From Enterovibrio baiacu (lineage in GTDB: Bacteria > Pseudomonadota > Gammaproteobacteria > Enterobacterales > Vibrionaceae): a stretch of DNA of 64,000 nt. The notes under the pieces are model-generated. The model was not told the DNA's origin, made no database searches, and saw nothing but the letters and a program-made list of their open reading frames with translations. The stretch is taken from assembly GCF_004120195.1 (NCBI RefSeq), contig NZ_SCHN01000007.1:62001-126000 (forward strand). The letters run 5' to 3'. How positions within the stretch are numbered: the stretch's first letter is position 1; each line of letters starts with the position of its first letter. Of the stretch, positions 15,375 through 60,937 are shown in pieces. Both the position numbers and the translations under genes were made by a program.

Positions 15375-15394
15375 CCCGAAGTTGAGGAGCGACA

Positions 15395-15715: not shown

Positions 15716-15745
15716 GGTCTTCTTCAACACAATCACGAGTGTCAG

Positions 15746-15775: not shown

Positions 15776-15786
15776 ATCCGTTGCGC

Positions 15787-18237: not shown

Positions 18238-18379
18238 CGACATTTTTCTAACAGTCAGAAAAATCGAAAGAAAGTGCACTACATTGAAAGGTATGCCTTT
18301 ATGTTTGAGGTATGCCTTTTTTGATGCTTTGTGAATAACACAATAAGTGACGCGGTCACTGAATAGAGAGGACGTTAAC

Positions 18380-44970: not shown

Positions 44971-45369
44971 TTAATGCAGGCATAAGAGCGCGATGCTCTC
45001 TACGTTTTTAGGATCAGGGTACCGATATCCTAGAGTACATAAGTCATCCAGCGCAAAATACTGTTGATAAAAGACGCGTGGCTCGTCGGAAATTGTTCTT
45101 GTAAAAGCACTGTTTTGATCTATCGATTCGAATGAAAAATCGAACTCTTCGGTATGATGATCTTCTTTGTTTGTATTTCGAGAGTAATGGGTCACGAGGA
45201 TATTTAAGTTATCCTTGAACTGCTTGATATGGGTTGAACGAATTGTGTGTGGTCCCGTGACATTTCCCGTCCACTCAGAAGTTTGGTGAGTTGTAGCAAC
45301 CGCGATTGCTACATTCAACACTGCGAGTAAAACAATCGCTATCCAAAACTTACGAACAGTCAAGTTCAT
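44971..45369 (-). CDS. TcpH/ToxS-like membrane partner protein
   Basis: The 132-residue protein has one N-terminal membrane helix (residues 8-25) and a periplasmic domain with two cysteines, C111 and C130. Its size, single anchor and Cys pair recall TcpH of Vibrio cholerae (136 residues, C114 and C132), which protects TcpP from proteolysis. It overlaps the preceding TcpP-like gene by 20 bp, strongly implying coupled synthesis and a complex. The ATG at 45369 is preferred over a longer frame. Confidence 0.65.
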   Translation of the reverse strand: MNLTVRKFWIAIVLLAVLNVAIAVATTHQTSEWTGNVTGPHTIRSTHIKQFKDNLNILVTHYSRNTNKEDHHTEEFDFSFESIDQNSAFTRTISDEPRVFYQQYFALDDLCTLGYRYPDPKNVESIALLCLH

Positions 45370-46066
45370 GGCTCTCTCTCTCATAGAAGCACACTAGGTT
45401 GTTAATCGTTACTTTCTTTTTGCTCTCGTTCGCTGTGTCTTCTATGCCAGAGAACTGGACGGAAAATCGCGTCGTGATGTAATCGTGTTTCAAGGTGTAG
45501 GCTTGGTAGAAACTCAAAATATTGATGACGGTGAAACATAGCAATGCGGTAATAGCAGTTAGACGGAGCTTATGTGCATTCTCTAGCCACCACGCTGGAG
45601 AGGTTGTTTCGGCTAGAGGCTCATGGCTTTCTTGGACCTCTACCGCAGGTGTATTTACGTCTTCTTCCGTTTTTTCTACTTCTATTGCTTCTGCTGTCTC
45701 TGAAGAGCTTATCGATCGCAGGTTTTCCGCCTTAGACGCCGTCAAGGCATAGCCCACACCAGGGATATTAACGATGATGGATTTGTTTTTATCGTTAAGC
45801 GCGGCGCGCGTGCGATTGATGAGCTGAGGCAAACTCTCGGCAGAGATAAACTCGTTGCCCCATACATTCATCACGATGTCTTGTTTAGAAGCAGCATTTG
45901 GATAAGCATCGGTCAGACAGCAGAGCAAATCTTGTTGTTTTCTCGTCAGCCTTTTAATGCCCGAAGATGTCCCATCCGAGTTGGCGCTATCTGACAAAGG
46001 CACCAGTGCATGCGTGTTTCTTTCCCAACGAAACTTCCCAAGGATGAGTGAATCGAGCTGTTTCAT
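45350..46066 (-). CDS. TcpP/ToxR-like transmembrane transcriptional regulator
   Basis: The 238-residue protein has an N-terminal OmpR-type winged helix (residues about 10-110), an acidic linker, one membrane helix (168-188) and a 50-residue periplasmic tail. The tail contains C226 and C237, 11 residues apart. TcpP of V. cholerae has C207 and C218 with the same spacing. It should bind DNA while in the membrane and respond to periplasmic or redox signals with its overlapping partner. The ATG at 46066 begins MKQLDSLIL. It lies upstream of, and divergent from, the ACP cluster, a possible target. Confidence 0.8.
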   Translation of the reverse strand: MKQLDSLILGKFRWERNTHALVPLSDSANSDGTSSGIKRLTRKQQDLLCCLTDAYPNAASKQDIVMNVWGNEFISAESLPQLINRTRAALNDKNKSIIVNIPGVGYALTASKAENLRSISSSETAEAIEVEKTEEDVNTPAVEVQESHEPLAETTSPAWWLENAHKLRLTAITALLCFTVINILSFYQAYTLKHDYITTRFSVQFSGIEDTANESKKKVTINNLVCFYERESHELDCS

Positions 46067-47032
46067 ACTGATCTCGTGATTAAATATGTCTAACAAAAAC
46101 GGCAGGGGATTATAGGCTACACGCCAAGTAAATCAACGATCCTGTATTCAACAGAAAGCGTTATTTACTTTGCAGTGTTAATTTATTTTCATATTATTCA
46201 ATCAATTGAATTAAATATGCACTAATGTTGCAAATCTCAAGTTGGTTGTGTTGTCTTACTGTTAAGTCAGGGTTGGCTGTTAAATTTACACCGTTACGTA
46301 ACAATTAAGGTGAATATTATCTGAATAGCCGCACGACATGTTTGTGACGAACGACAAGTCTTGCACTCACGGTTTACGCTTGTTTGCCGTGTTCGATTTT
46401 TGGCACATAAAACTTGGATGCTCACTGTGTGATTTGAGCTTTTGAGGGAGAATTTTTTCTTAGCCAAGATCATGCTTCAGGGTTTAATCTACTAAGATGC
46501 TATCTCAAAATTAACGGTGGAGACTTTTATCAATTGTAGTAGTGCGTACCAATCTCACCTTTATTTATTAGAATGTAACTAAGTATATTTGGTTAAATTA
46601 GCATGAGAGCCTTAAATAATCCAAAAGAAATCAAAACTACACACTTATCTCATTTGAATAAAACCAGTACTTGGATTGTATTTTTGTTTCATGAGTGAGA
46701 TGTCGTGATGATTTTATAAAAGAATTATTGAAAGAATTTTGGAACCTATCAATGAGAAGGTACGCATTAAAATCATTGAACGCCTATGACATAAATGTAA
46801 TGTAAAACATGACATTAAGTGCTTTCTTGCTGTGTTTTTATGCTTAATCTACGTGAAGCTATTTAGCCTTGGTAGTGCATTGATTTTGAATTCTGACGCG
46901 ATTTAAAACAGCGTATATGTCTTTATCCTGTTTGACGCTGATAAAAGCCCTTGATAACATTTTGCCAAAGAAGAATATACTCACAATGCACTATTATTTG
47001 TGTAATAAATTCATTGGCTTAAAGGTGGTAAT
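46067..47032. other. Long AT-rich non-coding region between TcpP-like gene and ACP operon
   Basis: About 965 bp hold no supported gene. It is visibly richer in A and T than the flanks, with many stop codons. Two tiny frames (46603, 31 codons; 46752, 17 codons) lack ribosome sites. It contains a possible promoter, TTGACG-N17-TAACAT (46932-46960), before the ACP gene. AAAGGTGG precedes the ACP ATG. Confidence 0.5.
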
Positions 47033-47320
47033 ATGGGTCAAAATATAAAAAGTTCGCAATATTTAACGGAGTCTCAAATATCTGAAATATTAAGTCGTTT
47101 AGAGTCGGAGTCAGAAACTGCGATTGCAGCGAAAGATATTTTACCTACGATGTCGTTGCGTGAAGATCTAGGAATGGATTCCATGCAAGCTGTTTCTCTT
47201 ACACTCGACTTAGAAGATTCTCTGTCTATATCTATAGATGATGAAGATTTAGTTAAGCTCGATACCGTGAATGACCTTTTTGAAATCATTGAATCTAAGC
47301 TAAGTCAAAACAATGGATAG
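47033..47320 (+). CDS. Stand-alone acyl carrier protein
   Basis: The 95-residue acidic protein has the phosphopantetheine attachment motif LGMDSM with Ser50, followed by LTLDLEDSLSISI, the helix II recognition region. It is separate from the housekeeping fab cluster and overlaps the ketosynthase gene by 8 bp, so it is a dedicated carrier for the pathway here. It needs a phosphopantetheinyl transferase, which is not encoded nearby. Confidence 0.93.
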   Translation: MGQNIKSSQYLTESQISEILSRLESESETAIAAKDILPTMSLREDLGMDSMQAVSLTLDLEDSLSISIDDEDLVKLDTVNDLFEIIESKLSQNNG

Positions 47321-48563
47321 TCGCAGACGTGTTGTTGTAACCGGTGTTGGTGTCGTTTCATCAATAGGCAATGACTTTGACACACTGACGGAATCCTTAA
47401 AGCTTGGTCGCAGTGGTATTCGTGCGGTCGAATCGTGGTCTGAGTATGGGTTAACGAGCCGTGTTGCGGGTTTAATTGATCTTGACGAGGCTAAAATACA
47501 GTCCGCGAACATTCCCCTGAAACTCCGCAGAGCGATGCCTACCTCAACGCTTTATTGCAGTGTTGCCGCTAGTGATGCTATTTCGTCTTCTCGTTTGACC
47601 CCTGAAGAGCTTGCTGATCCCCGAACTGCTTGCCTTGTTGGCAGCGGTGTGGCTGATGTCGGTGTGATACACAGAGAGGGGGCAAGGTGTTACGAAGGGA
47701 ATGTTCGCAGAACAGAGCCCTATACCGTACTCAAATCCATGAGCAGCACGGCGAGTGCAATCCTCACGAAACTCTTTGGTATCACTGGGCGCAGCTATTC
47801 GATCTCGTCTGCGTGTGCGACGGGCGCGCACAACATTGGCCATGCTTACGAACTGATCCGTGACGGGGTGATTGACCGCGCCGTAACGGGTGGCTGTGAG
47901 GAAGTGAATGAGTTGATCGTTGCTTCTTTTCAAGCATTGAGAATGGCCCTTTCTACAGGGTTTAACGACACACCTGAAAGTGCATCACGTCCCTATGATA
48001 CTGATAGAGATGGGTTTGTGATTAGTGGTGGTGCTGGTGTGCTTGTCGTAGAGTCGCTTGATTCAGCGTTAGCGCGTAACGCTCCCATTTATGCAGAAAT
48101 CATGGGTTACGCGGCGAACTCAGACCCTTACGATCTCGTCCTGCCTCAAGCAGACGGCGGTACATTTGTTGATTGTATTGCCAGTTCATTAGACGACGCG
48201 GGCATTTCCTCTGTCGATATTGATGCCATTAACACGCATGGAACAGGGACTGTCGCGGGCGATGTGGCCGAAGTGAATGGTCTACGCAGGGCGTTTGGTA
48301 ACAATGTTCCAAGGTTCTCGTCGACAAAATCAATGACAGGGCATGCGATCGGTGCAGTCGGGGCCATTGAGTTGATCGCTTGCATTGCGATGCTGAAAGA
48401 GGGCTTTATCGCCCCTTCTATCAATATCGATAATCTCGATCCTCTTTTTGCTGATGCCCCTATCGTTCGAGAAACCACAGAGGCTGATTTGAAGACAATG
48501 CTGTCTTTGAACTTTGGTTTCGGTGGAACGAATGCAGCGACGGTCCTGAGAAAAATGGACTGA
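47313..48563 (+). CDS. Beta-ketoacyl-ACP synthase, FabB/FabF-like
   Basis: The 416-residue condensing enzyme has the intact triad: C168 in SSACATGAHN, H309 in NTHGTGT and H344 in MTGHAIGA. It condenses malonyl-ACP with an acyl-ACP. It is one of three acyl-chain enzymes in the locus; no ketoreductase or enoyl reductase is present, so those steps would be borrowed from housekeeping FabG/FabI or omitted. Its gene overlaps the ACP gene. Confidence 0.93.
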   Translation: MDSRRRVVVTGVGVVSSIGNDFDTLTESLKLGRSGIRAVESWSEYGLTSRVAGLIDLDEAKIQSANIPLKLRRAMPTSTLYCSVAASDAISSSRLTPEELADPRTACLVGSGVADVGVIHREGARCYEGNVRRTEPYTVLKSMSSTASAILTKLFGITGRSYSISSACATGAHNIGHAYELIRDGVIDRAVTGGCEEVNELIVASFQALRMALSTGFNDTPESASRPYDTDRDGFVISGGAGVLVVESLDSALARNAPIYAEIMGYAANSDPYDLVLPQADGGTFVDCIASSLDDAGISSVDIDAINTHGTGTVAGDVAEVNGLRRAFGNNVPRFSSTKSMTGHAIGAVGAIELIACIAMLKEGFIAPSINIDNLDPLFADAPIVRETTEADLKTMLSLNFGFGGTNAATVLRKMD

Positions 48564-48586
48564 CACTTTGGTATCTGTGACTCGCG

Positions 48587-49099
48587 ATGATGAATAGACG
48601 TTTTATTGATGGGTTGAGGGGGCCGCAAGGCCACCTAGAAAAAGAGGCTATTCGCGCGATCTTATCCTACGGCGATGCCTTTTTGTTTGTGGACTCCGTG
48701 AGCCATTTGACTGATTCGGATATCGTCGCGCAATACCACATCCCCGAATCATCTGAACTGATTGATGCACACTTCAAACATGCCCGCATGATGCCGGGTG
48801 TTCTAATGGGCGAAGCATTAGCACAAGCCGGTATTGTGTTAGTGCATTACCGAAGTGAGTTTGAAGAAGAGACAGATGTGATTGCGAGTACCGTCAACCA
48901 AATGCGGTTTAAGTCTCCCGCATTGCCCGGAGATACCTTAGAAGCACGCGTCAGCATAAAGGCGATCAATCGTCTTGGTGCGAGGCTCATCGGGCATTCC
49001 TACGTCAATGATCGCGAGGTGTTGTCTGCCACGTTTGATCTCACGTTTATAAAGCGAGAGAACCTTATTGAACATCTCTCTCAACACGTCACGCGTTGA
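48587..49099 (+). CDS. FabZ-like hotdog-fold dehydratase
   Basis: The 170-residue protein has DAHFKHARMMPGVLMGEALAQAG, corresponding to the FabZ active helix with His62 and Glu76. It probably dehydrates 3-hydroxyacyl-ACP made with the adjacent ketosynthase and ACP. A thioesterase role is a weaker alternative because the His/Glu pair favours dehydration. It begins 23 bp after the ketosynthase gene. ATG codons at 48587 and 48590 are both possible. Confidence 0.87.
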   Translation: MMNRRFIDGLRGPQGHLEKEAIRAILSYGDAFLFVDSVSHLTDSDIVAQYHIPESSELIDAHFKHARMMPGVLMGEALAQAGIVLVHYRSEFEEETDVIASTVNQMRFKSPALPGDTLEARVSIKAINRLGARLIGHSYVNDREVLSATFDLTFIKRENLIEHLSQHVTR

Positions 49100-49262
49100 G
49101 AGCAGGCGTATCCTATTTTTTCGCCCAATCATCAAATTGCTGCATGCCTATACAAGGTGAATTCGAGTACATGGAAGTCGTTTGGGTAAACTTCAACTGC
49201 CGTGTGATAGACATTTTGGACGTTGTTTCATCATGCGTTAAACAATATGAGTGGGGATTTTA

Positions 49263-49712
49263 GTGTCCTTTAGACTAGCAACGGTAAATGACTTTATTGA
49301 TGTAACGCCATCGCGTTTTAGGTGCTCGAGTTATAAAAATTCAGCATATCCTCTTGGGTGTTCAATGTCAGAACTTGATTCAGCGTTGGGAGAGGGAGAT
49401 TTTGCTGTTTTTGATGACACGACCAACGTGGGATTTATCAGAATAAAAGCCATGTTTCATGGCATCGCCTATCTTGATTTCCATTTGCTCAGTGGTGTGG
49501 CTGACAAAGAAGTGCAGTCTGTGTTGAGCTGGTTATCTGAACACTACGATATCGGAAAATATTACCTGCAGTTACTTCCCCATGAACAGCTGGAGCTAGA
49601 TTGTTTAACGCGTTTAGGTTTCACCGAAGAAGCGCGTTTAAGAGAGCAGTTGTTTGTTGAAGGGACATATTGCGACTTAATCATGATGGGAAGTGAGGAT
49701 AAACGTGTTTGA
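49263..49712 (+). CDS. GNAT-family acyltransferase, first of two
   Basis: The 149-residue protein ends with LGFTEEARLREQLFVEGTY, the beta5-helix4-beta6 pattern of RimJ/RimL-like N-acetyltransferases, and has a shorter, divergent N-terminus. It would transfer an acetyl or longer acyl group from CoA or ACP to an amine. I chose the GTG at 49263 because GGGGA lies five bases upstream; a GTG at 49251 is the alternative. It overlaps the next gene by 8 bp. In this cluster it is a candidate for joining the ACP-bound chain to an amine. Confidence 0.7.
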   Translation: MSFRLATVNDFIDVTPSRFRCSSYKNSAYPLGCSMSELDSALGEGDFAVFDDTTNVGFIRIKAMFHGIAYLDFHLLSGVADKEVQSVLSWLSEHYDIGKYYLQLLPHEQLELDCLTRLGFTEEARLREQLFVEGTYCDLIMMGSEDKRV

Positions 49713-50307
49713 CAGTGTTCGTGGAATCTATTGCGCTATACGTCGCCCCAATCTCGAAGACCTGGATACCATTACTCGCTGGCTGGATGATCCTTACCTG
49801 AATTCGACCGTTTTTGACAGTTCAACCTTTGTTAACGGCGCTCAGGAACAAGCGATGACGTGGCTAGAACAGAACGCGACTGTTTATGGTGCAGACAACC
49901 TCTTGGGGTTGGTCTGTTCTGTGAAAAGTGGCAAGCCAATCGGGATGGTCTGGTTCAACAACATTGACTGGAAAAGCCGCACTGCAGACCTTCGCTATTT
50001 GGTCGGGGAAGCCGAGTATCGTACCAGTGTGTTCGGGCCTGAAATCGCGCTGCTCAGCCTTCAAATGGCTTTTAATGTGATGAATTTACATAAGATTTTT
50101 GGTTATGTTTTGTCGGGGAATGAGAATTCAATTAGCCTGGCAGAATTTGGAGGCATTAAAGAAGGTGTGCTAAAAAACTACGTGCGAGTAGGCGATGGAT
50201 GGAACGACTACCATCTCTATGCCATGTTCTCAGATGACTTCCGGGCATTTTTACAAAAACACAAAGATGGGGTGTTACGCCGCCACTTTAAGAAAGGCCT
50301 ATTCTAA
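49705..50307 (+). CDS. GNAT-family acyltransferase, second of two
   Basis: The 200-residue protein is a RimJ/RimL-type GNAT: IRRPNLEDLDTITRWLDDPYLN at the start, GKPIGMVWFNN, LRYLVGEAEYR, and NLHKIFGYVLSGNENSISLAE near residue 135. It is longer than its neighbour and has the more complete fold. GAGGA supports the GTG start at 49705, inside the previous gene's end. It may acylate the peptide or another amine made here, or be an immunity enzyme. Confidence 0.82.
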   Translation: MFDSVRGIYCAIRRPNLEDLDTITRWLDDPYLNSTVFDSSTFVNGAQEQAMTWLEQNATVYGADNLLGLVCSVKSGKPIGMVWFNNIDWKSRTADLRYLVGEAEYRTSVFGPEIALLSLQMAFNVMNLHKIFGYVLSGNENSISLAEFGGIKEGVLKNYVRVGDGWNDYHLYAMFSDDFRAFLQKHKDGVLRRHFKKGLF

Positions 50308-50309
50308 AC

Positions 50310-50915
50310 GTGGGCCTACTTGCTTTACTGCTTACGTTTGTTGTTTGCGTCTCTTTTTTATACCCGCGAGTCATCGGTGATCGCCTTGGCTTCATGTTCA
50401 TGCTCCCCGTGCTTGCCTACACCGTGATTTTCTATGTGGACTGGCAGTTTGCGTCTCTGATTCAACTTTTTACGATGATTGTCGGTGGGGCATGTGTCGG
50501 TATCGGTTTGCTGTTCGCGGGGTTACCCTTGAGTTCACCTCAACCAAAAGCATTCATGGTAAACAGCATGCGCGGGTTGAGCAGCCTTAAAGAAAACAGG
50601 CCTTATCTCTTATTTCAAGTTGGGATAACGTGTTACGAAGAGCTGATTTGGCGAGTATTTCTGATCAGCACATTGTTGTTAGTGCTGCCTGCTTGGGCAG
50701 CAATCTTCCTTTCTTCTGTCCTTTTCTGGACCGTTCACGGGGAAAACAGACCGTTAGGGTGGCACTCATTAGAGTTTTTTATCTTCTCAATGGTGCTTGC
50801 TGTTGCTTACAACCTGTTTGAATCCGTGCTCTTTGTCTGGGTTATTCACCTCACCAGAAATGTCCTTATTCTTTCAGCCTCGGACTATGAGCAACGTCAG
50901 GCTAGCCCGAGCTAA
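50310..50915 (+). CDS. CPBP-family intramembrane metalloprotease
   Basis: The 201-residue polytopic protein has all three motifs of the CAAX protease/bacteriocin-processing (Abi) family: EExxxR at 110-115 (EELIWR), FxxxH at 139-143 (FWTVH) and HxxxN at 180-184. The family includes eukaryotic Rce1 and bacterial proteases tied to peptide maturation or self-immunity. It starts at GTG two bases after the GNAT gene and ends 9 bp before the convergent MacB-like gene. It is the best candidate for leader removal or immunity here. Confidence 0.9.
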   Translation: MGLLALLLTFVVCVSFLYPRVIGDRLGFMFMLPVLAYTVIFYVDWQFASLIQLFTMIVGGACVGIGLLFAGLPLSSPQPKAFMVNSMRGLSSLKENRPYLLFQVGITCYEELIWRVFLISTLLLVLPAWAAIFLSSVLFWTVHGENRPLGWHSLEFFIFSMVLAVAYNLFESVLFVWVIHLTRNVLILSASDYEQRQASPS

Positions 50916-50924
50916 AAGGCTTGT

Positions 50925-52169
50925 TTACGCATCCCTGAGCGCATCTACTGGCTTCATTTGAGCCGCTCTTCGCGCAGGCACATACCCCGCAACCAATCCA
51001 ACCAAAATTGACACAAAAAGGGCAATACTGATGCCTAACATTCCCGGAAATAATGGGAAGCCGGTAAAAATGTCTAAAACAACCCCAATGAGCATCCCCA
51101 CGGCCAAACCCGCAAGGCCACCAATCAAACAAATGAGCACTGATTCGACAATAAATTGCACCATGATATGGCTGCGATGCGCGCCAATGGCCGCACGAAT
51201 ACCGATTTCCCGTGTCCGTTCAGCAACCGCTGTGCTCATGATACCGGCAACACCTATTGCCCCAACGATCAACGCGCTAGAGGCGGCAATAATGCCAATA
51301 ATGGTGACACCGCCAAGAATGTTATCTGTGGTTTTGATGTATGACGCGAGGGTTTCACTTTGATATTCAAACACGCCTTGATAGCGTCGCGACAGCACCC
51401 CTTTTAGCTGAGCGGCGGCGGCTTCAGCGGCTTCGACCGACGTGGCTTCAACTTGTAGGTAGTTAACATCGCTATTTCCATTCAGTGTTTGAATAAGCGG
51501 GTAGCTCACTAAAATGCGATTATTCACATCTCCGCCTGCAGAGCCGATGCTAGCGAGCAAATCTCGACTTTTAGATCGCAGAACACCAACAACCTGATAT
51601 TCACGACCTGAGATTCTGAGTGTGCGACCTAAGGGATTGGGCATTCCAGGAAACAGGTCAGATGCCACGGTTTCGCCGATAACGGCGACAGGTCTACGAT
51701 TTCTGATTTCTACTTCTCGAAGGCCTCTTCCGATACGTAACTGGTCATTGTTGATGGCGAGGTAATCGACGTTGACGCCGATGACTTGCGCGTTGTTGTA
51801 ACGATTGCCCGCTTGAACGACAGGGGCGGGACCTCTCGGGTTTACAACAGGACTGATGAGACTGACTGAAGGACAACAATCACCTTGAAGGGCGATTAAA
51901 TCGCTGTTGTTGATGCCTGTTCCTGCGCGTATACGTCTGTGCGGGTCTTTGCTGCTATGCGCCCGATATACCCAAACAGATTTCAGGCCGAACGTTTCTA
52001 GTTCCTGCATGACGAATGCTTTGCCACCGGTGCTGACGGTATCAACCGTCATCACGGCGGCGATACCGACCGCAATGCCAATCATACTCAGCATGGATCT
52101 GCCCCAATTAGCGAGCATGGCCAGTCGTGCTTCTTTAAACAAGTCGGGCAGGATGCGGAGTGTTTTCAT
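50925..52169 (-). CDS. ABC transporter permease, MacB/FtsX type
   Basis: The 414-residue protein has one N-terminal membrane helix (about 25-45), a large periplasmic MacB core domain, and three C-terminal helices with the segment MSTAVAERTREIGIRAAIGA. MacB-type systems use mechanotransmission to push substrates from periplasm to outside through TolC. Here the ATPase is a separate gene whose stop codon abuts this start. It forms a unit with the ATPase and the HlyD-like adaptor. Confidence 0.9.
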   Translation of the reverse strand: MKTLRILPDLFKEARLAMLANWGRSMLSMIGIAVGIAAVMTVDTVSTGGKAFVMQELETFGLKSVWVYRAHSSKDPHRRIRAGTGINNSDLIALQGDCCPSVSLISPVVNPRGPAPVVQAGNRYNNAQVIGVNVDYLAINNDQLRIGRGLREVEIRNRRPVAVIGETVASDLFPGMPNPLGRTLRISGREYQVVGVLRSKSRDLLASIGSAGGDVNNRILVSYPLIQTLNGNSDVNYLQVEATSVEAAEAAAAQLKGVLSRRYQGVFEYQSETLASYIKTTDNILGGVTIIGIIAASSALIVGAIGVAGIMSTAVAERTREIGIRAAIGAHRSHIMVQFIVESVLICLIGGLAGLAVGMLIGVVLDIFTGFPLFPGMLGISIALFVSILVGLVAGYVPARRAAQMKPVDALRDA

Positions 52170-52828
52170 ATCACTATCCTGCCGTCTCGCATGTGTACCA
52201 CTCTGTCAGCCGCTTCGGCCAAATGTGCATCGTGAGTGACCATAACAATGGTATGCCCGTCAGCATGTAATGCTTTGAACAAATCCATTACCTGCTGCCC
52301 AGTTTGGCTGTCTAATGCGCCAGTTGGCTCATCTGCGATCAGTAATTTTGGCTTGTTCACCAACGCTCGAGCAATCGCCACACGTTGTTGCTGTCCACCG
52401 GAGAGTTGATTCGGGAAATGCGTTGCGCGATCGGCGAGGCCCACGCGTTCGAGTGCAGATAAAGCCAAGTCTTTGCGCTGGGAGGACGGGGTGCCTTGAT
52501 AGACTAAAGGAAGCATGACATTCGCCAACGCATCACGGCGTGATAGCAAATTAAACGATTGAAAGATGAATCCAATTAACGATGAACGAAGCGTTGCGAG
52601 CCCATCATCACCGGTTAGATGAACAGCGGTGCCGTCCAAATGGTAGGTGCCTTTGTCGGCGTTGTCTAAGCAGCCAATAATGTTGAGAAGGGTGCTTTTT
52701 CCTGAACCAGAGGCACCCATAATCGTCACGAATTCTCCCTGCTTAATGCTCAGATCAACCCCTTGTATGATGGGTAAGGGCGCGTCTCCGCTGAAGTAGG
52801 ATTTATGCAGGGATTCAATCTTGATCAT
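52166..52828 (-). CDS. ABC transporter ATP-binding protein, MacB/LolD type
   Basis: The 220-residue ATPase starts [15 protein letters not shown] and has Walker [10 protein letters not shown], signature LSGGQQQR and Walker [13 protein letters not shown]. It matches the short ATPases that pair with FtsX/MacB permeases. Its ATG lies 14 bp inside the adaptor gene, implying coupled translation; a longer frame to 52927 overlaps the adaptor and is unlikely. Confidence 0.92.
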
Positions 52829-53936
52829 GCTTCGCTGCAAACCTTGCTGTACGGCCATTTTCAAGATAGCCGCTATCAAACAGGGCGACCTGTTGCCCTT
52901 CCTGAACGCCGCTGAGGATTTCAACATGTGTGTCCGTTTCTAACCCTGATTCGACAGGCTGCAACCGAATGACGCCTTGTTCTACCAATGCAACTTCAAA
53001 GTGCCCAGGCTCGCGTTCACGCAGGGCGCTGTAGGGCAGCCTAAGCACATCGCCTCGTTCTTCTATCACGATTTCAATATCCAGTTGTTGCCCGAGCAGA
53101 AGTTTAGGGGCATCGGCGCCTAACCCCATGCGTACTGGAAACGTATTTAAGTGGCGTGCTGATGTACGCTCGATAGCGGGGCCAATCCAATGAATTTGCG
53201 TTTGCCAGCGCTGGTTGGGAAACGCATCTGATGAAACGTTAACCAGCTGGCCAACGTGAATTCTTCCTGAATCAACGGCATCCAGATTCGCTTCTATTTC
53301 CCATCCCTCAATCGCCACGAGTTGGAAAAGATCCGTACCGGCTTCAACCCATTGTCCAGACTCAGTCCACTTATCCACGATAACGGCGTCGAAAGGGGCG
53401 TTTAGCTTTTGCCAATCTTGTTCAAGTACACGCATTTGGGCGTCAGCTTGGGCAATCGCAACGGCGGATTTTGCTTTCTCCAATTCATACTGCGCTTGGT
53501 CTAACGCTTCAACTGACACCAGTTTTCTGTCAGATAATTCGGATAATCTGTTGTAACGCTGTTGTTGCTCTCTTAAATGCACAGTTTCTTGCTGAACGAC
53601 GGCTTTAGCGCGTTTTAGTCGGGTGATTGAGGCGCGGTTATCCATGGCGGCCAAGGTGTCATCTTTGTTGACCAAATCACCATGAGCAACAAAGACCTGT
53701 TCGACGCGACCGTTCACTAAGGCCGTCAAAGTAACGGTGCGATCATTGATCACTTCTCCCGTTACTCGAATGATGTAGGCCATCTCATTGCGTTGTACGT
53801 GCACGCCTGACACTTCCAGAGGGGGCGTTTGATAGAAAAAGTAGCCTGTGGCAGCAGCAGAAACCAGAATAAGGATAGCGAAAGTGCTCTTGAAGTAGCC
53901 TCTCACGGATTGCCTACTAGACTGCTTCAATTTCAT
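52815..53936 (-). CDS. Periplasmic adaptor subunit, HlyD/MacA type
   Basis: The 373-residue protein has an N-terminal membrane anchor (about residues 17-37), a lipoyl-like half (GRVEQVFVAHGDLVNKDD), a coiled-coil hairpin of about 75 residues rich in Gln/Arg/Glu, and the matching lipoyl and beta-barrel segments. It would link the MacB-type permease to an outer membrane channel such as TolC, which is not encoded here. The start may instead be ATG 53972. It heads the three-gene exporter unit. Confidence 0.88.
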   Translation of the reverse strand: MKLKQSSRQSVRGYFKSTFAILILVSAAATGYFFYQTPPLEVSGVHVQRNEMAYIIRVTGEVINDRTVTLTALVNGRVEQVFVAHGDLVNKDDTLAAMDNRASITRLKRAKAVVQQETVHLREQQQRYNRLSELSDRKLVSVEALDQAQYELEKAKSAVAIAQADAQMRVLEQDWQKLNAPFDAVIVDKWTESGQWVEAGTDLFQLVAIEGWEIEANLDAVDSGRIHVGQLVNVSSDAFPNQRWQTQIHWIGPAIERTSARHLNTFPVRMGLGADAPKLLLGQQLDIEIVIEERGDVLRLPYSALREREPGHFEVALVEQGVIRLQPVESGLETDTHVEILSGVQEGQQVALFDSGYLENGRTARFAAKHDQD

Positions 53937-54128
53937 AAGAGGTGCTCTCAATTCTCTATCCCTACTGCTCATCAATTACGAGGACGTTAGCGCTTTTCAC
54001 TCTTATATCGTTAAGAGGCCATTTGGGGAGTATATCGCTTCGTGTGTCGAACATAAGTCTCAGTTTCGCTTAAACATTCAGTCTTTGTCAGCGAGTGAGA
54101 ACGGATGACGTTTCTTGGTTAAACGAAC

Positions 54129-55865
54129 CTACGCTTGGTTAACCTTTTTTAGCGCAGTTTCAGTCACGCGAGTGGCGTTACTTAAGCTGTCATTCTCCAG
54201 ATAGACGATGCGATCAACCGCTTCAAATAGGCGATCATCATGGCTGACAATCACCACAATTTTTGACTGTTTTAGGTCGCGTATAACATCAATCAGCAGG
54301 GTTACCGCTTCACTGTCTAAGTTATTCGTCGGCTCGTCCATTAGCAAAATCGGTGTATCGCGCAGTAATGCACGCGCGAGGCCTAGTTTTTGGACTTGGC
54401 CTCCTGATAGCTCTGAATGCGCATTTTTAATGACATGATCAATGCCTTGGTCGAGGCGCTCAACCCACTTATCGAGCCCCACCAAAGAGAGGGCGGCTTG
54501 AATCTTTTCTTGCTCAACGTCCATGCCAAACGTCACGTTGTTACGAATGGAGTCAGAAATGATGTGGATCTTTTGTGGCACCATTGAAATCCACTGAGAC
54601 CGGCTTGGTAGGGAATTGAGGCGTATAGTGTCGAGTGCAATGTGCCCTGATTGCGGTTTGAGCTCTCCGCTTAGAATGGTGAGTAGCGTTGATTTTCCAG
54701 CCCCGTTACCGCCGTTAATCAAATGTGCTTGGCCTTTATTGAAAGCCAAGTCTAGCTCGGTGAATAAAGGGTAGTCGTGCTGGTAGGAAAAACTCATCCC
54801 CTCTATACGCATCGACGCAATGGTGGTTGATGGGTCGATGTCGACACTCACGCGATCAACCGAATCTTGCTGAGATTGCGCTTGCGCTAAATCATCCAGT
54901 TCTTTTACGCGCATTAATGCCGTCAATTCGTTAGGCATACTTGAAGCAAACTCAATGATCCTAATCAGTGAAGGCACCATCAAGTTGAGTGTCGCTGTAT
55001 AGGTGATGATCAAGCCCACGGTCAACTGTTCTTCAATGACCATCGCACCGCCAAGATACCAAATGATAACCACGGCTAGCATGGGGATCCCCATAATAAT
55101 CATGCTCACTTTGGTATCATATAACTGACGGGTGAAGCGCTTTCGCTCCAAATCTTCAACGGCTTTTCGGCAATATTTCGAAAAGAAATTGCCAGCATCA
55201 TATATTTTTATTTCTGCATCAGCTTCTATGGTTTCTTGTACGACAGTGAATTTTGTTGCGGAGGCATCCGTTTCATCTTTAGACGATGACCACAGAGCAC
55301 TGTCAAATCGCATGTAAACAAGGATAGCTGCGGGTAACAAGACAAGAAGAATGGCACTTAATTGCCAATTCATGAAAAAAACGATCACTAATAAAACGAG
55401 CGATAAGACGAGATGGTGGATAGCGCTTGATAGCCCATAAGGCATGATGACTTCAAACTGGTCTATATCCCTTGTGACGCGCGAGAGCAGGTCACCGTTG
55501 TTGATTCTTAGTCGTTGATTAAAATTCAAACCCAGAATGCTTTTAATTACATCCTGATTAAAATCAATCATTATATCTTCGCGCACTTTTAGACGAAATC
55601 GCGCGTTAACATAACTGGTCACCAAATAACCGCTGTAAAGAATGGCGAGCAATGAAACGGTCTTTAGCAGTAAATCTGAATCTGCGCTAGGTAGCACTTG
55701 GTCAATGAGATGACCTGATAAGTAGGGCAGTGGTGCTTGAAATGCTGTTAGCAATAAAGCTAACAGTAGAAAAGATAAAGAATGATACTTTCTTTTTTTA
55801 TAGATGAGCTTATATAAGTAAGAAATTCGGGTCACAGTCCGATCCGGGTTTAGAGGAAAAACCAT
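54129..55865 (-). CDS. One-polypeptide ABC exporter (TMD-NBD)
   Basis: The 578-residue protein has a six-helix type-1 exporter membrane domain (about residues 30-310) followed by an ATPase with Walker A GGNGAGKST (385-393), LSGGQ (486-490) and Walker B ILLMDEPT (506-513). There is no N-terminal C39 peptidase, so any leader must be cut by another protease. It lies 79 bp downstream of the 40-residue peptide gene on the same strand and is its most likely exporter. Confidence 0.92.
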   Translation of the reverse strand: MVFPLNPDRTVTRISYLYKLIYKKRKYHSLSFLLLALLLTAFQAPLPYLSGHLIDQVLPSADSDLLLKTVSLLAILYSGYLVTSYVNARFRLKVREDIMIDFNQDVIKSILGLNFNQRLRINNGDLLSRVTRDIDQFEVIMPYGLSSAIHHLVLSLVLLVIVFFMNWQLSAILLVLLPAAILVYMRFDSALWSSSKDETDASATKFTVVQETIEADAEIKIYDAGNFFSKYCRKAVEDLERKRFTRQLYDTKVSMIIMGIPMLAVVIIWYLGGAMVIEEQLTVGLIITYTATLNLMVPSLIRIIEFASSMPNELTALMRVKELDDLAQAQSQQDSVDRVSVDIDPSTTIASMRIEGMSFSYQHDYPLFTELDLAFNKGQAHLINGGNGAGKSTLLTILSGELKPQSGHIALDTIRLNSLPSRSQWISMVPQKIHIISDSIRNNVTFGMDVEQEKIQAALSLVGLDKWVERLDQGIDHVIKNAHSELSGGQVQKLGLARALLRDTPILLMDEPTNNLDSEAVTLLIDVIRDLKQSKIVVIVSHDDRLFEAVDRIVYLENDSLSNATRVTETALKKVNQA

Positions 55866-55886
55866 TTCCCCAGAAAATATGTAAAG

Positions 55887-55908
55887 TGGGGATTTAACAT
55901 CATCCCCA
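55887..55908 (-). terminator. Possible attenuator between peptide and exporter genes
   Basis: TGGGGAT and ATCCCCA form a 7-bp stem with an eight-base loop in the minus-strand transcript, followed by a T-rich but interrupted run. It could lower read-through so the peptide is made in excess of its exporter. Confidence 0.45.
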
Positions 55909-55944
55909 TTTTATTATTAATACCTAATATAGCGTTAGCGTATA

Positions 55945-56067
55945 TTAAGGTGTACCACAACAAGGGCCTGGATTAGGAGGCGTAGGAGGCGTAGGCGGAT
56001 GAGTAGGCTTTTTATGCTTCGTAGCCAGTACAGGTCCTTTTTTTGCAGCAAAGCTTATTTTTTTCAT
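55945..56067 (-). CDS. 40-residue Pro/Lys-rich candidate precursor peptide
   Basis: The peptide begins MKKISFAAKKGPVLATKHKK (basic half) and ends with a Pro-rich half in which PPT repeats are followed by NPGPCCGTP. AAGGA lies at an ideal distance from the ATG at 56067, which favours this short product although the frame stays open to 56262. It has no hydrophobic signal peptide. Beside an exporter and opposite an operon with GNAT and protease genes, it looks like the precursor of a ribosomal, post-translationally modified peptide. Lysines (six) or cysteines (two) would be the modification sites. I know no described family with this sequence. Confidence 0.6.
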   Translation of the reverse strand: MKKISFAAKKGPVLATKHKKPTHPPTPPTPPNPGPCCGTP

Positions 56068-56532
56068 AATCTTTCCTTTTTTAATGAAGCCAATTAATGA
56101 CGTAATTACTGTGTGTATTTGATTTATCGAATAAATAAATACCATGGCATTGTTGTGGTGATTCTTTTGGAAGTCAACTTTTAAGAAGTGACGAACTGAG
56201 CCTATATATATTAAATCGTTAAAATGATGAGAATGTCGTTTATTTGAGAATGCATAAGGCAATACTTTGCCATTAATTTCTCATTAATGCTTTACCCGTC
56301 ACTCATTAATTTTTCATCCTCACCCCATCCATTTCCCATTTATTTTTATGGTGTTTTACTTATGGTTAAAGTTTGAACGCCATTGGTTTGGAGAGGATAG
56401 GACGAAATGGTGGGGAATCCGTGAAGCAAGATCACTGCGACATCAAAAACGATGTTTCTGTTTCGATGTCACAGTGAATGGAAATACTTCTCATCTCCGC
56501 CGTCGCCTTCTCATTCAACGCAATCGTTGGGC
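56068..56532. other. Upstream region of the peptide gene and 3' region of the TRAP operon
   Basis: On the minus strand TTGACT lies about 100 bp before the peptide ATG with a possible AACAAT -10 17 bp on. A long inverted repeat, TCACTGCGACATC with GATGTCACAGTGA (56432-56477), could end the TRAP operon transcript but has no T-run. No gene is supported in between. Confidence 0.45.
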
Positions 56533-57831
56533 CTACTTATATCCAAGAAAGTACGCCGGCAAAAACAGAGATATTTGCGGAATAAAAGTGATAAGAAGAA
56601 GCGCGCCGATCATGGTGACAACCCAAGGTAGTATCCGTTTCGCGATGTTTTCAAAGGGGATCTCTCCCACTTGTGCGGCCATAAAGAGGTTTGCACCAAG
56701 AGGCGGAGTGACAAATCCAATGGCGAGCGCAACGATCATCACAATGCCAAAATGCACCAAATCCACACCGAGTTTGGTGAGCACGGGCAGCAACACTGGC
56801 GTCAGGATGACAATCGAGGCAAGCGTTTCCAAGAAGGTACCGATGATCAGGAGCAACACGAGTATCGCAATGAGGACGAGATATTTGTTTTCCGTGCTTG
56901 ATAAAACAAACTGCGCCAACTCGGTGGGAATTTTCTCAAGTGCGATGATGCGACCAAACGCCACGGATGCCCCGATGATCACCAGCACGGCAGAGACTAG
57001 CATGGCCGACTCCAGCATGATTTTTGGTAGTTGTTTCATGGGAAGTTCACGGTACACCAAGCAAGAAACAATCAAGGCATACACCACGGCGACGGCAGAA
57101 GACTCCGTTGGAGTAACAACCCCGCCATAGATGCCGCCGAGAATAACGATGGGCATGATGAGCGCGAGTTTGGCTTCATTGAGCACATGGAAGATTTCTT
57201 TACAGGTGGCGGGCTCTCGAATGTGTCCCATGTGCGCATGACGGTTCTGTCTGCGGTGAAAGTAGTTATACGTTATTAAGGTGATAGCAATCACAAGACC
57301 CGGCAGAATCCCTGCCATAAATAAGGCGGTGACGGAAACACCCGCCGCAACGGCATACACAATCATGACCACTGACGGTGGGATCATCACACCTAATCCG
57401 CCAGCACTCGCTACCATAGCGCCAGCATAAGCGCGGTCATATCCTCGCTGAACAAGCGCGGGGATCATCGCCAAACCCACCGCTGCGACAGTGGCTGAGC
57501 CTGTACCTGATATGGCTGCGAAGAACAGACAAGCCATGATAGTGACGGTGCCCAAATCGCCTGGAGCGCGCCCAAATAAGGTATCCGCAACGGCGATCAA
57601 ACGTTTGGAAATCCCGCCTTTGCTCATGATATTGCCTGCAAGGGTGAACAACACAACAGCAATCAAGGTGAAGCTGTTGATGCCACTGACGAGCCCAAGC
57701 GCATACAAATCGGGCTTGAGAAAAGGGATGTACATAATGGCGAGAAGCGATGCAGAGCCAAGGGCGATACCAATTGGCACACCGATGAGCAACATGCCAA
57801 AGAAACCTGCGAAGAGGATCAGTGAAGTCAT
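56533..57831 (-). CDS. dctM: TRAP transporter large permease (DctM)
   Basis: The 432-residue protein has about 12 membrane segments and typical DctM stretches MLLIGVPIGIALG, SGTGSATVAAVG and GFVTPPLGANLFMA. With the small permease and the DctP protein it imports carboxylates or related anions with sodium. Its ATG overlaps the end of dctQ. It is the last gene of the minus-strand catabolic operon. Confidence 0.93.
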   Translation of the reverse strand: MTSLILFAGFFGMLLIGVPIGIALGSASLLAIMYIPFLKPDLYALGLVSGINSFTLIAVVLFTLAGNIMSKGGISKRLIAVADTLFGRAPGDLGTVTIMACLFFAAISGTGSATVAAVGLAMIPALVQRGYDRAYAGAMVASAGGLGVMIPPSVVMIVYAVAAGVSVTALFMAGILPGLVIAITLITYNYFHRRQNRHAHMGHIREPATCKEIFHVLNEAKLALIMPIVILGGIYGGVVTPTESSAVAVVYALIVSCLVYRELPMKQLPKIMLESAMLVSAVLVIIGASVAFGRIIALEKIPTELAQFVLSSTENKYLVLIAILVLLLIIGTFLETLASIVILTPVLLPVLTKLGVDLVHFGIVMIVALAIGFVTPPLGANLFMAAQVGEIPFENIAKRILPWVVTMIGALLLITFIPQISLFLPAYFLGYK

Positions 57832-58328
57832 GATGGCGTCTCCTCGCTGTTATATACGCTCAAATCACCGCGCACACCAATTTGGTACAGCGAGTAGAGA
57901 AGTCGCAGGCTACAGAGCAATCCTGAAAAAATGATGGCAGCGTAAAGCACAGAGGTTGACCATTGCGTGGCAGATAAGGTTTTCCCTCGCTCTATGGCTT
58001 GCTGTGTAATTTGTACGCCTAGGTAGCAAACCGTGACTGAGTAGATGAGGAAGATGGATTCGCTGATAAACATCACAACACGTTTTTTCTTCGTCGAGAA
58101 TTTGTCGACAAAGTAAGTGACGCGCATGTGGCGATGTTCTCGGATGGCGTAACTAATACCAAAGTAAATGAGGTAGACGAAGCACAGCCTTGCGATTTCA
58201 TTGGCGATAACGATAGAGGTTGAGAACGCAAAGCGTGCTATGACATCTGCAAACACCAGCACGATGATCGCGAAGAGGCTGATGACGATAATGGTAGGTT
58301 CGAAGTACTTTTCGATTATCCGAAACAT
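57828..58328 (-). CDS. dctQ: TRAP transporter small permease (DctQ)
   Basis: The 166-residue protein has four membrane segments, with the MFRIIEKYFEP start and RFAFSTSIVIANEIARL segment common in DctQ proteins. It overlaps dctM by four bases (ATGA). The ATG at 58328 is favoured over a longer frame to 58379. Confidence 0.9.
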   Translation of the reverse strand: MFRIIEKYFEPTIIVISLFAIIVLVFADVIARFAFSTSIVIANEIARLCFVYLIYFGISYAIREHRHMRVTYFVDKFSTKKKRVVMFISESIFLIYSVTVCYLGVQITQQAIERGKTLSATQWSTSVLYAAIIFSGLLCSLRLLYSLYQIGVRGDLSVYNSEETPS

Positions 58329-58419
58329 GGTGGGTGATTCTCCATGACAACCAGTTTGAGAACGTTGAACTCTCGTCAAACACAGGGCTTCTCAATCGAT
58401 GAAAAGCCCTGTATCGCCA

Positions 58420-59403
58420 CTAAGGTTGAAGGTTCGACATAAACTGGTCGTAAAAATCACTGCCCACTTTTTTACGGATGTCGGCTTCTATCGCGGTGTT
58501 CATGGTTTTACCCAAACGCTCGCGGTCTTCTAACGGTAGGCTGTTGACCTCGAGTCCTTTTTCTTTGAGTGCTGCTAATGTTTCGTTGTTTGTCTTCAAG
58601 GTTAAGTCGCGTTGAAGCAAAATGGTCTCTCTTGCGACTTCATCAATCAATTTGCGGTCTTTGTCATCGAGATCGTTGTACCACTCGAGATTCGCCATCC
58701 AGAGTTCAGGCCAGTAAATGTGATTGGTGAGCGATACGTATTTCTGTACTTCAAAGAAACGCTCAACAAGCATGGAGGAGAGGGCACTTTCTTGACCAAA
58801 AATCAGGTTCTGCTGGAGCGAAGAATAGATTTCTCCCCATGCCAGTGGGATGGGCACGGCATCAACAGATCGCCATGCACTGATGGCGATAGGGTTGTCT
58901 GCCGATCGCATACGCAGCCCCGCAAATGCGTCATAACTATCAAGCGGTGCGCGGTTGTTGGTGAAGCTTCTAAAGCCTAACTCCATAAAGCCCATTGACT
59001 TCAAACCGCGTTTTTCCATGGCTGCGCCCAATGATTTGCCTGCTTCGCCATCAAGCACATTTCGTGCAGTGTCTTCATCGGCAAACAGCAAGAATTGGTC
59101 AAGTACAGCCAACTCATTCACCGTGGAAGACAGGTGGACGGACGCGCCCGTTGCCATGGTGATGTTGCCGGACTGAACAAGTTCGGTCATTTCCCTTACG
59201 CTACCGAGTTGGCCGCCAGGGTAGATTTCAACATCGATGTCTCCGTTAGAGCGTTTCTCCAATTCTTCCTCGAAATAAAGAAGCGATTGATGAATGGGAG
59301 AAACTTCTGGTGTGGCGTGGCCAATCCGTATGGTGGTATCAGCATAAGATGCACTGGTGGAAAGTAATCCGGCTATGACGGTCATCATCAATGAAAATTT
59401 CAT
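58420..59403 (-). CDS. dctP: TRAP transporter substrate-binding protein (DctP)
   Basis: The 327-residue protein has a signal peptide (residues 1-21, cleavage near SYA-DT), then IRIGHATPEVSPIHQ and GGQLGSVREMTELVQSG, the DctP family pattern. The conserved Arg in the GLRMRSADNP region binds the substrate carboxylate. It should deliver the substrate degraded by the enzymes upstream in the operon. About 130 bp separate it from the RraA-like gene. Confidence 0.93.
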   Translation of the reverse strand: MKFSLMMTVIAGLLSTSASYADTTIRIGHATPEVSPIHQSLLYFEEELEKRSNGDIDVEIYPGGQLGSVREMTELVQSGNITMATGASVHLSSTVNELAVLDQFLLFADEDTARNVLDGEAGKSLGAAMEKRGLKSMGFMELGFRSFTNNRAPLDSYDAFAGLRMRSADNPIAISAWRSVDAVPIPLAWGEIYSSLQQNLIFGQESALSSMLVERFFEVQKYVSLTNHIYWPELWMANLEWYNDLDDKDRKLIDEVARETILLQRDLTLKTNNETLAALKEKGLEVNSLPLEDRERLGKTMNTAIEADIRKKVGSDFYDQFMSNLQP

Positions 59404-59534
59404 GGTGTACTCCTTTTTTGAGCCGTAAATGCCTGCACCGCTCAGTATGAGCAGCGTGGTGGTGTTTCTGTGTTCATGAGTCTTGCGTTGGTGTTGTCTC
59501 AGCGCATCGAGATCACGCGAGACGATGAAAAACG

Positions 59535-60230
59535 CTAAGTTCGCACACGCTCGAATTCAGCCCATGCTTGTTCGAATCGGTCAAAGTTGAAGCCTTCTTC
59601 TCTTGCGGCTTTCAAAATGATTTGTTCGTTACTGAGTAAGGTGTCAATCGCATCAGCGAGCACAGGAACAATGTCTGTAGGGATCACCACCGCGCCATGT
59701 CGATCGGCGTGAATGAGGTCTCCATGCGACACGCGTAAACCAAAAACTTCGACAGGCTCGCCAATGCTCTCGATATGAACGAAACCATGGCTAGGGCCCA
59801 CCGACCCTGCGAGAACGAGGAACTCCTCAGGTAAGTCGCCAAGATCGCGCATCACACCGTTGGTTAACACACCACTCAACCCCAAGCCCTTGTGGACATT
59901 GGTATTGATCTCCCCCCAAAACGCACCAATAGCATCAGGAAAATCCAAATCTTCGATTACCGCAACGGACGGGAAAGGGGTCTCTGACATGTATCGGTAA
60001 TAGTCCATACGCAGCTTTTTTACCTCGTCAGCGGGCAAGTTAGACGGTTCAAGTGCCGCTATTTGTGCGGTTTTTGCATAACCCACGATTGCGGGACTTT
60101 CCGGCGCTGATGCTTGCAACGTTCCTCGCGTGAAATCGTTGAAACCGCGTTTTCCTTGTGCGATTTCTATGGCGTTACACACCGTTGGCGTGTCCACACT
60201 GATCAGTAATTCGTAGAGCGCTTTATCCAT
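59535..60230 (-). CDS. RraA/HMG aldolase-like protein
   Basis: The 231-residue protein shows GVLTNGVMRDLGDL with the conserved Arg-Asp pair at 128-129 and DLIHADRHGAVVIP. This is the fold shared by RraA and 4-hydroxy-4-methyl-2-oxoglutarate/oxaloacetate aldolases. In a catabolic operon an aldolase or oxaloacetate decarboxylase role is far more likely than RNase E inhibition. The ATG at 60230 overlaps the hydrolase TAA stop (TAATG), so the GTG upstream is rejected. Confidence 0.85.
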   Translation of the reverse strand: MDKALYELLISVDTPTVCNAIEIAQGKRGFNDFTRGTLQASAPESPAIVGYAKTAQIAALEPSNLPADEVKKLRMDYYRYMSETPFPSVAVIEDLDFPDAIGAFWGEINTNVHKGLGLSGVLTNGVMRDLGDLPEEFLVLAGSVGPSHGFVHIESIGEPVEVFGLRVSHGDLIHADRHGAVVIPTDIVPVLADAIDTLLSNEQIILKAAREEGFNFDRFEQAWAEFERVRT

Positions 60231-60937
60231 TAACTGTTCAACCACGTAGCGAGCGCGCGCGTGGTTGCCTCCGGTTGTTCGAGAGTGGGAAGATGGCCTG
60301 CTTTTTTGATGACCACATAATCTGCATGAGGGATCAGTGCTTTGATCGCATCATGTCTGTCTTTTGGGCACAACTGATCGTCTTCACCCATTAAAATCAA
60401 GGTGGGAACATCAACATGCTTCAGCGTGTCTTGTTGATCGGGCCTGTCTCTGAGCGCCAGCGATTGATTGACGAATGCCATGTCGCCGAGGCTTTTCGCC
60501 ATGTGAAGACAGAGCGCTTCGATATAGGGGTTGGGGTGTTCGCGATGAAGGTATTTGGGAATCATCATCTCTTGCATGACACTCAGAAGCTCCCCGTTGG
60601 CGATGCGATCAAGTTGAGCTTGTCGTCCTGCTTTTACCTCGTCGATTTCTGCACGCGGGTTGGTATCCATGAGTGCTAATTTGCTGATGCGATGAGGTGC
60701 TTGCCGATAGACTTCCATCGCCAATATGCCGCCCATTGACAGCCCCGCAAGCGCGAAACGCTCAGGGGTATTTTTGAGCACTTTTTCGGCGAGGGATGCC
60801 ATCGATTGTTCAGAAGAAATATCCATCACGATGACGTTTCGATCCGCTTGGAATGCGGCTATTTGTGGCGCAAACAGGCGCTCATCACACATCATGCCGG
60901 GAAGAAACACCAAAGGTTCAAGAGAGGCGCGGTTCAT
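60230..60937 (-). CDS. Alpha/beta hydrolase
   Basis: The 235-residue enzyme begins PLVFLPGMMCDERLFAPQ and has the nucleophile elbow GLSMGG (Ser67), the acid in GEDDQLCP near 180 and the His in KAGHLPTLEQP near 214. It resembles 3-oxoadipate enol-lactonase and C-C bond hydrolases. It is linked by TAATG overlaps to the genes on both sides, so it probably cleaves an intermediate of the same pathway. Confidence 0.88.
   Translation of the reverse strand: MNRASLEPLVFLPGMMCDERLFAPQIAAFQADRNVIVMDISSEQSMASLAEKVLKNTPERFALAGLSMGGILAMEVYRQAPHRISKLALMDTNPRAEIDEVKAGRQAQLDRIANGELLSVMQEMMIPKYLHREHPNPYIEALCLHMAKSLGDMAFVNQSLALRDRPDQQDTLKHVDVPTLILMGEDDQLCPKDRHDAIKALIPHADYVVIKKAGHLPTLEQPEATTRALATWLNS

Follow-up and report, generated by a model that had tools for sequence, protein, structure and literature searches.

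What is made by a set of eleven genes from Enterovibrio baiacu that joins fatty-acid-type enzymes, acetyltransferase-like proteins, a membrane protease and exporters with a 40-residue peptide? The set occupies positions 47033-56067 of the window, by which we mean the whole 64,000-nucleotide stretch analyzed here (contig NZ_SCHN01000007.1, positions 62,001 to 126,000). An initial annotation, made from the sequence alone, had placed eleven genes here in two facing blocks; all eleven reading frames occur at the claimed place and strand, and Pfam identifies nine of the ten larger proteins, the exception being GNAT1. The plus strand carries, in order, an acyl carrier protein (ACP), a ketosynthase (KS), a dehydratase (DH), GNAT1, GNAT2, and a CPBP protease; facing this block, the minus strand carries a MacB-type permease, an ATPase, an adaptor, a type-1 ABC exporter, and the 40-aa peptide with its ribosome site. 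We estimate a probability of about one half (0.5) that the product of this cassette is a secreted, acylated ribosomal peptide, i.e., a lipidated ribosomally synthesized and post-translationally modified peptide (RiPP), made from a dedicated acyl-ACP. This reading starts from direct observations: the same genes recur in an unvarying order, they are present all-or-none in the genomes searched, their catalytic residues are intact, and the peptide is under selection. The features are as follows:

46932..46960, plus strand: promoter-like site of the plus-strand block (TTGACG-17-TAACAT)
47033..47320, plus strand: acyl carrier protein, 95 aa, with an LGMDS motif (PP-binding, E 1.5e-9)
47313..48563, plus strand: FabB-like ketosynthase, 416 aa (Pfam; NCBIfam FabB 421 bits, cut-off 630)
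48587..49099, plus strand: FabZ-like dehydratase, 170 aa (FabA-like domain, E 6.5e-14; FabZ model 73 bits, cut-off 113)
49251..49712, plus strand: GNAT1, a very divergent GNAT-like protein, 153 aa (Acetyltransf_4 in four of nine orthologues; GNAT structures)
49693..50307, plus strand: GNAT2, a RimJ/spermidine-acetyltransferase-like acyltransferase, 204 aa (Acetyltransf_3, E 1.9e-12)
50310..50915, plus strand: CPBP protease (PF02517, E 2.8e-10)
50925..52169, minus strand: MacB-type permease (MacB_PCD and FtsX), 414 aa (Pfam)
52166..52828, minus strand: ABC ATPase, partner of the permease, 220 aa (Pfam; likely start, the open reading frame opening at 52927)
52815..53975, minus strand: periplasmic adaptor (membrane fusion protein), open reading frame of 386 aa (HlyD_3, E 1.2e-16; RND_mfp TIGR01730 above cut-off)
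54129..55865, minus strand: type-1 ABC exporter, 578 aa (ABC_membrane and ABC_tran)
55888..55907, minus strand: terminator-like hairpin between the peptide and exporter genes (GGGGAT...ATCCCC)
55945..56067, minus strand: precursor-like peptide, 40 aa (orthologues and selection)
56149..56177, minus strand: promoter-like site of the peptide operon (TTGACT-17-AACAAT)

The peptide is the part of the cassette on which a ribosomal product depends, and the small gene called in the initial annotation has both orthologues and a record of purifying selection. Nine orthologues of 29-40 aa share 22 invariant columns, and eight of them sit at the same place in other genomes. Their architecture is comprised of a constant N-terminus (MKK..F.AKKGPVLATK), in which lysines 2, 3, 9, 10, and 17 are invariant, a proline-rich spacer of variable length, and a constant C-terminus (PGPCC(G)TP). 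Over 36 sequence pairs, which are not independent of one another, the proportion of synonymous differences (pS) is 0.57 and that of nonsynonymous differences (pN) is 0.10, with a dN/dS of 0.11; for the first 17 codons the values are 0.66 and 0.06, respectively. The eight orthologues in place, along with the excess of pS over pN, argue that this gene is more than a chance open reading frame. Translation from 56067 is supported indirectly, by this selection and by conserved promoter-like and ribosome sites, the latter being present at all nine loci. None of the nine sequences matches a Pfam family at E 1, and a search of NCBIfam returned one non-significant match for one of the nine, to TIGR04101 (CCGSCS motif protein; E 0.19). 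The name of that model implies paired cysteines, as are also found in the peptide.

The remaining genes occur together with the peptide. The order of the eleven genes is identical at all nine loci, and all eleven queries have a match in each of the eight other loci fetched. A scan of named genomes turned up eight loci, exclusively in Enterovibrio or Grimontia (E. norvegicus DSM 15893 and FF-33, E. calviensis, E. coralii, two Enterovibrio sp., G. indica, and G. celer). GNAT2 and the peptide were found in the same nine of 329 genomes of the family and in none of the other 320, while DH and the ABC exporter, searched at limits of E 1e-8 and E 1e-100, respectively, were found in an identical nine of the 18 genomes of the genus. 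Strong orthologues of GNAT1 (E 2e-67 or better) were likewise present in nine of 100 relatives, all of them within these 18 genomes, and nine further genomes gave weak matches only. The two strand blocks were never found apart in the genomes searched. Thus, neither of the patterns that the initial annotation had named as contrary to its proposal, a peptide gene not conserved with the other genes and two blocks occurring independently, was encountered.

All eleven genes are under purifying selection, with median dN/dS values of 0.04-0.14 for the ten larger ones (eight of nine rows for the adaptor and exporter; for E. coralii, fragments represented KS, the permease, and the exporter). Furthermore, evolutionary distances of the plus-strand block correlate with those of the permease plus ATPase (r 0.70, a value that 33 of 5000 permutations attained) across eight loci, a comparison that leaves out E. 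coralii and does not include the adaptor, exporter, or peptide. In the E. coralii copy (L023), the genes for KS, the permease, and the ABC exporter are each broken into more than one frame, whereas those for the peptide, GNAT2, and the other members are open; the breaks reflect either decay or sequencing error.

Recurrent sequences upstream of both blocks suggest that they are driven alike. The sequence TTGACN-17-AACAAT lies 79-85 nt upstream of the peptide ATG at all nine loci, and TTGACN-17-TA(A/G)NNT lies 70-72 nt upstream of the ACP start at eight of nine, the site of the plus-strand block being missing in the G. indica copy. Because a promoter scan of the window by itself returned 14 sites where 17.9 were expected, and hence not above chance, it is the comparison across species that supports these promoter-like sites. 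A hairpin, GGGGAT...ATCCCC, is also present at all nine loci, beginning 37-97 nt past the peptide stop and with energies of -11.1 to -13.2 kcal/mol; in the E. coralii copy its seventh pair is swapped from G-C to A-T. No Rfam match was obtained in 46000-56700.

The enzymes of the plus-strand block appear to comprise a type II fatty-acid or polyketide elongation set, to judge from their intact motifs. As had been noted for the window copy, active residues are kept: the DS motif of ACP, the HF(x6)PG...E (His-Glu) motif of DH, and the EExxxR, FxxxH, and HxxxN motifs of the CPBP protease are found in all nine copies, and the C-H-H residues of KS in all eight copies of full length; in E. coralii, the ninth, KS is a fragment that retains just the Cys part. 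Both KS and DH score well under the cut-offs of the NCBIfam housekeeping models. The E. baiacu genome encodes four KS besides that of the cassette, the nearest being 47% identical, and in a tree of 13 rows, which carries a long-branch warning, the eight cassette KS form a single clade (100/99) beside this nearest KS (97/95). Outside the window, at G000:C10:27506-31081, the same genome has two adjoining KS-like genes, which share 36 and 29% identity with the cassette KS and may belong to a further biosynthetic locus.

Two amine acyltransferases of the GNAT type had been proposed; membership in that family is clear for GNAT2, which matches Acetyltransf_3, while for GNAT1 there are weak GNAT matches only. 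The window copy of GNAT1 has no Pfam match even at E 1. Four of the nine orthologues match Acetyltransf_4 (best E 7e-4), a profile search of solved structures returned GNAT matches (best E 1e-4, with the top match covering the C-terminal part only), and in an unrelated genome (locus L064) the end of GNAT1 matches the same gene as GNAT2; together these point weakly to membership in the GNAT family. The nearest solved relatives of GNAT2 are aminoglycoside, spermidine, and RimJ-like acetyltransferases (best E 3e-6). At the P-loop position, where the usual GNAT motif is Q/R-x-x-G-x-G/A (PMC13060382), all nine GNAT2 copies have R-(T/N)-S-V-F-G, an alteration that may point away from CoA as the acyl donor.

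These parts suggest a possible route. Holo-ACP, KS, and DH, along with housekeeping loading and ketoreductase enzymes, would build a particular acyl-ACP, perhaps unsaturated, from which GNAT2, possibly with GNAT1, would transfer the acyl group to an amine of the peptide; candidate acceptors are the peptide start and the five invariant lysines. The N-terminus of the peptide would act as the recognition part, the proline-rich stretch as a spacer, and PGPCC(G)TP as a conserved functional end. The type-1 ABC exporter could then carry the peptide over the inner membrane, where the CPBP protease would process it, and the adaptor-ATPase-permease pump would expel the product. For the exporter, Pfam reported no peptidase C39 domain; the start region of the ABC ATPase matches that of its orthologues, and the true start of the adaptor probably lies a few codons inside its open reading frame.

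The acylated ribosomal peptide proposed in the initial annotation is therefore backed in part: the gene linkage and the selected peptide support it, while the acylation itself we infer, and several points weigh against it. GNAT1 is barely recognizable as a GNAT. No ketoreductase or loading enzyme was detected by Pfam or NCBIfam among the eleven cassette genes; the initial annotation had proposed that the pathway relies on housekeeping FabG/FabI. The altered P-loop of GNAT2 counts only weakly toward an ACP donor, because the first Gly is also missing from an aligned solved aminoglycoside acetyltransferase. Nor does chemistry of this type need an ACP: NpuN, a lipidating GNAT, accepts acyl-CoA in vitro (PMC13060382). 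This enzyme is a tandem GNAT, and the start of the GNAT2 gene overlaps the end of the GNAT1 gene, so we considered the pair as a split tandem GNAT; profile comparison of GNAT1 with GNAT2 gave a probability of 1%, with no detectable homology between the two, and we set the idea aside. Additionally, a distant gammaproteobacterial locus (L049; G693:C1:211500-231000, genes spanning 6894-18640) has a similar GNAT pair, a KS, an ACP, and polyamine-synthesis genes in the absence of a recognizable peptide.

L049 bears directly on the possibility that the cassette enzymes make a small acyl-amine (e.g., an acyl-polyamine or N-acyl amino acid) without the peptide, which would then be a separate secreted peptide or a helper using the same exporters. 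Among eight distant neighborhoods of GNAT2-like genes, it is the only one with a KS. It encodes S-adenosylmethionine decarboxylase (SpeD), spermidine synthase, adjoining GNAT1-like and GNAT2-like proteins, an ABC exporter, and a second spermidine-synthase-like (SpeE-like) protein, together with a KS, an ACP (assigned by eye from an LDSLD motif), an outer-membrane efflux protein, a MacB-like permease, an ATPase, and an adaptor; no peptide, CPBP protease, or DH was recognized in it. L049 is possibly an acyl-polyamine pathway, found in one of six genomes of its family, and by analogy it supports amine acylation by GNATs of this kind but equally supports an acyl-amine made without a peptide. The nearest solved relatives of GNAT2, which are acetyltransferases of small molecules and of proteins, also speak for such an acyl-amine. 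However, the L049 KS falls outside the clade of cassette KS, so its resemblance may be independent; the Enterovibrio cassette has no amine-synthesis gene; and the peptide keeps company with GNAT2 in the same nine of 329 genomes. We consider a peptide-free product unlikely.

The other explanations keep the peptide in a central position and assign it or its acyl group a different role. The acyl group could be a temporary mask, with the CPBP protease removing the acylated part at export to leave a mature product that is not lipidated. There is a precedent in DidK, a CAAX-protease-like enzyme that strips an N-acyl-polyglutamine part from didemnin precursors (PMC10811503), and the CPBP motifs are intact in all nine cassettes, but DidK cleaves an ester, and the part it removes is made by a nonribosomal peptide synthetase; a transient acyl group is distinctly improbable in our view. 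The position of the cysteines raises a further idea: since a Cys is fourth from the end in all nine peptides (CCTP in five, CCGTP in four) and a CAAX-type protease is encoded alongside, the peptide may carry a bacterial CaaX-like box, in which ACP, KS, and DH would supply a fatty acyl group instead of a prenyl one, attachment to the C-terminal cysteine(s) would fall to the GNAT-like proteins or to some other enzyme, and the CPBP protease would trim the last residues. This idea draws on motif and neighborhood only, no prenyltransferase was detected among the cassette genes by Pfam or NCBIfam, and we regard it as a long shot, although if true it would represent an acyl-ACP-driven, CaaX-like pathway acting on a secreted ribosomal peptide. 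Finally, the peptide could be only a regulatory leader (acting by arrest or attenuation) of the exporter operon, as it is short, first in the operon, and ends in Pro-stop, with the terminator-like hairpin following at every locus. Both ends of the peptide are conserved, though, while its spacer varies, as does the distance to the hairpin, which is a poor fit to a ribosome stalled at a fixed distance, and the N-terminal amino acids are kept while synonymous sites vary; a purely regulatory peptide seems to us very improbable. An acylated, secreted ribosomal peptide is the reading we favor.

The distribution of the cassette also bears on its history. It is whole while its flanks differ in most loci; a single one of the other eight loci has flanks in common with the window, and the two Grimontia loci have flanks in common with each other. 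Proteins with near-identical starts (MIRD.TLVP), at 3163-3729 of locus L022 and 14077-14643 of L023, lie next to the cassette on its ACP side in one of these genomes and on its peptide side in the other, as though the cassette had been inverted within a common region. Recent transfer was considered and set aside, the GC contents of cassette and flanks being alike. In four further genomes, recQ is on the same contig at a distance of 22-84 kb. Together, these observations favor inheritance within the genus, accompanied by losses or moves.

Wider searches returned little resembling the cassette. The whole cassette had no megablast match among plasmids, nor did GNAT1-GNAT2 among phages; GNAT2 gave a single 29% match to plasmids, and DH matched five plasmid records at <33% identity, those with an annotation being FabZ-like. 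Across 369 class genomes, a peptide profile recovered the own genome and two weak partial matches over the proline-rich end. The GNAT2 profile had distant matches in samples of the class (two in 369 genomes) and phylum (six in 398 genomes, using a profile that included a distant cousin sequence), and in seven of these eight neighborhoods no cassette KS, ACP, DH, CPBP, or exporter match was obtained at the limits used. A defense system was also considered and rejected: PADLOC had no match for six of seven proteins, and the exporter had only generic ATPase matches.

On the ACP side of the cassette, positions 44971-46096 encode a winged-helix (Trans_reg_C) protein whose C-terminal part includes a hydrophobic stretch and, after it, a protein of 137 aa that Pfam does not match. 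The two resemble a ToxR/TcpP-type pair, and neither was found in the eight other cassette loci. On the peptide side, a TRAP transporter (DctP, DctQ, DctM), an RraA-like protein, and an alpha/beta hydrolase adjoin the cassette at 56533-60937. The TRAP transporter region adjoins it in E. norvegicus DSM 15893 as well, and is absent from the other seven fetched loci, except for a 30% hydrolase match in L024.

Known systems provide partial parallels. Lipolanthines and goadvionins are built with a large polyketide synthase, whereas the cassette encodes single ACP, KS, and DH proteins, and its peptide matches no family significantly. No lanthionine synthetase is present among the cassette proteins or the eight flanking genes, to which that search was confined within the genome, nor was any other known RiPP maturase recognized within the cassette; in enzymes other than its GNATs, the locus is thus unlike the goadvionin and selidamide pathways that the initial annotation had cited as precedents. 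The likeness to lipolanthines and goadvionins lies in the joining of a ribosomal peptide to a polyketide-type acyl chain, which for goadvionin is attributed, in a title cited there, to an acyltransferase condensing the two parts (PMC9505594). Closer in chemistry are the selidamides and nostolysamides, in which a GNAT fatty-acylates the side chain of Lys or (hydroxy)ornithine in a ribosomal peptide (PMC9505594; PMC13060382); NpuN, for example, acylates Lys1 (PMC13060382). Those pathways are described as using acyl groups from primary metabolism, NHLP- or Nif11-type leaders, and mostly lanthionine enzymes, while the cassette has a dedicated ACP, KS, and DH and a very short precursor, which has no Pfam match at E 1 and, at 29-40 aa, lacks the length to contain an NHLP or Nif11 leader. 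In place of the tandem GNAT of NpuN, the cassette has two separate GNAT genes.

For the proposed transfer step, SbzC, SbzI, and FeeM (the last named by citation as a further carrier-protein-dependent GNAT) are GNAT-family enzymes that acylate an amine with a group taken from a carrier protein (PMC6331615). Their described acceptors are small molecules, whereas for GNAT1 and GNAT2 both donor and acceptor are predicted. For the protease, DidK is likewise a CPBP-family membrane hydrolase that matures an acylated peptide natural product, acting in didemnin export (PMC10811503), although that peptide is nonribosomal. Myxosortase is a CPBP protease whose targets bear a C-terminal tag (MYXO-CTERM) with essential cysteines, and the tag of its target TraA contains CCGT (PMC11980579), as do four of the nine cassette peptides. 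This likeness may be due to chance. The MYXO-CTERM tag runs on into a membrane helix and an Arg-rich end, whereas the cassette peptides stop after CC(G)TP.

As the initial annotation had suspected, the gene set is unfamiliar: no description of it was found in the open-access literature, a search that mostly excluded subscription journals, although antiSMASH is reported to detect RiPP and RiPP-like clusters in one Grimontia and one Enterovibrio (PMC9860996). Chemistry of this kind is known, while the gene combination and precursor were not found described there. In common with the GNAT-lipidated RiPPs, which are rare among ribosomal peptides (PMC9505594) and in which GNATs perform the lipidation (PMC9505594; PMC13060382), the cassette has an encoded precursor peptide, its translation supported by selection, and a GNAT encoded alongside. 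What distinguishes it is the linkage, seen in nine genomes, of a short peptide family with fatty-acid enzymes that are single proteins, with two GNAT-like proteins, and with a CPBP protease. To our knowledge, the known lipidated ribosomal peptides rely on lanthionine or proteusin machinery; the cassette, if our reading is correct, would encode an acylated-RiPP pathway compact enough, at ~9 kb, to be of use in engineering, and would allow direct tests of the poorly understood substrates of bacterial CPBP proteases.

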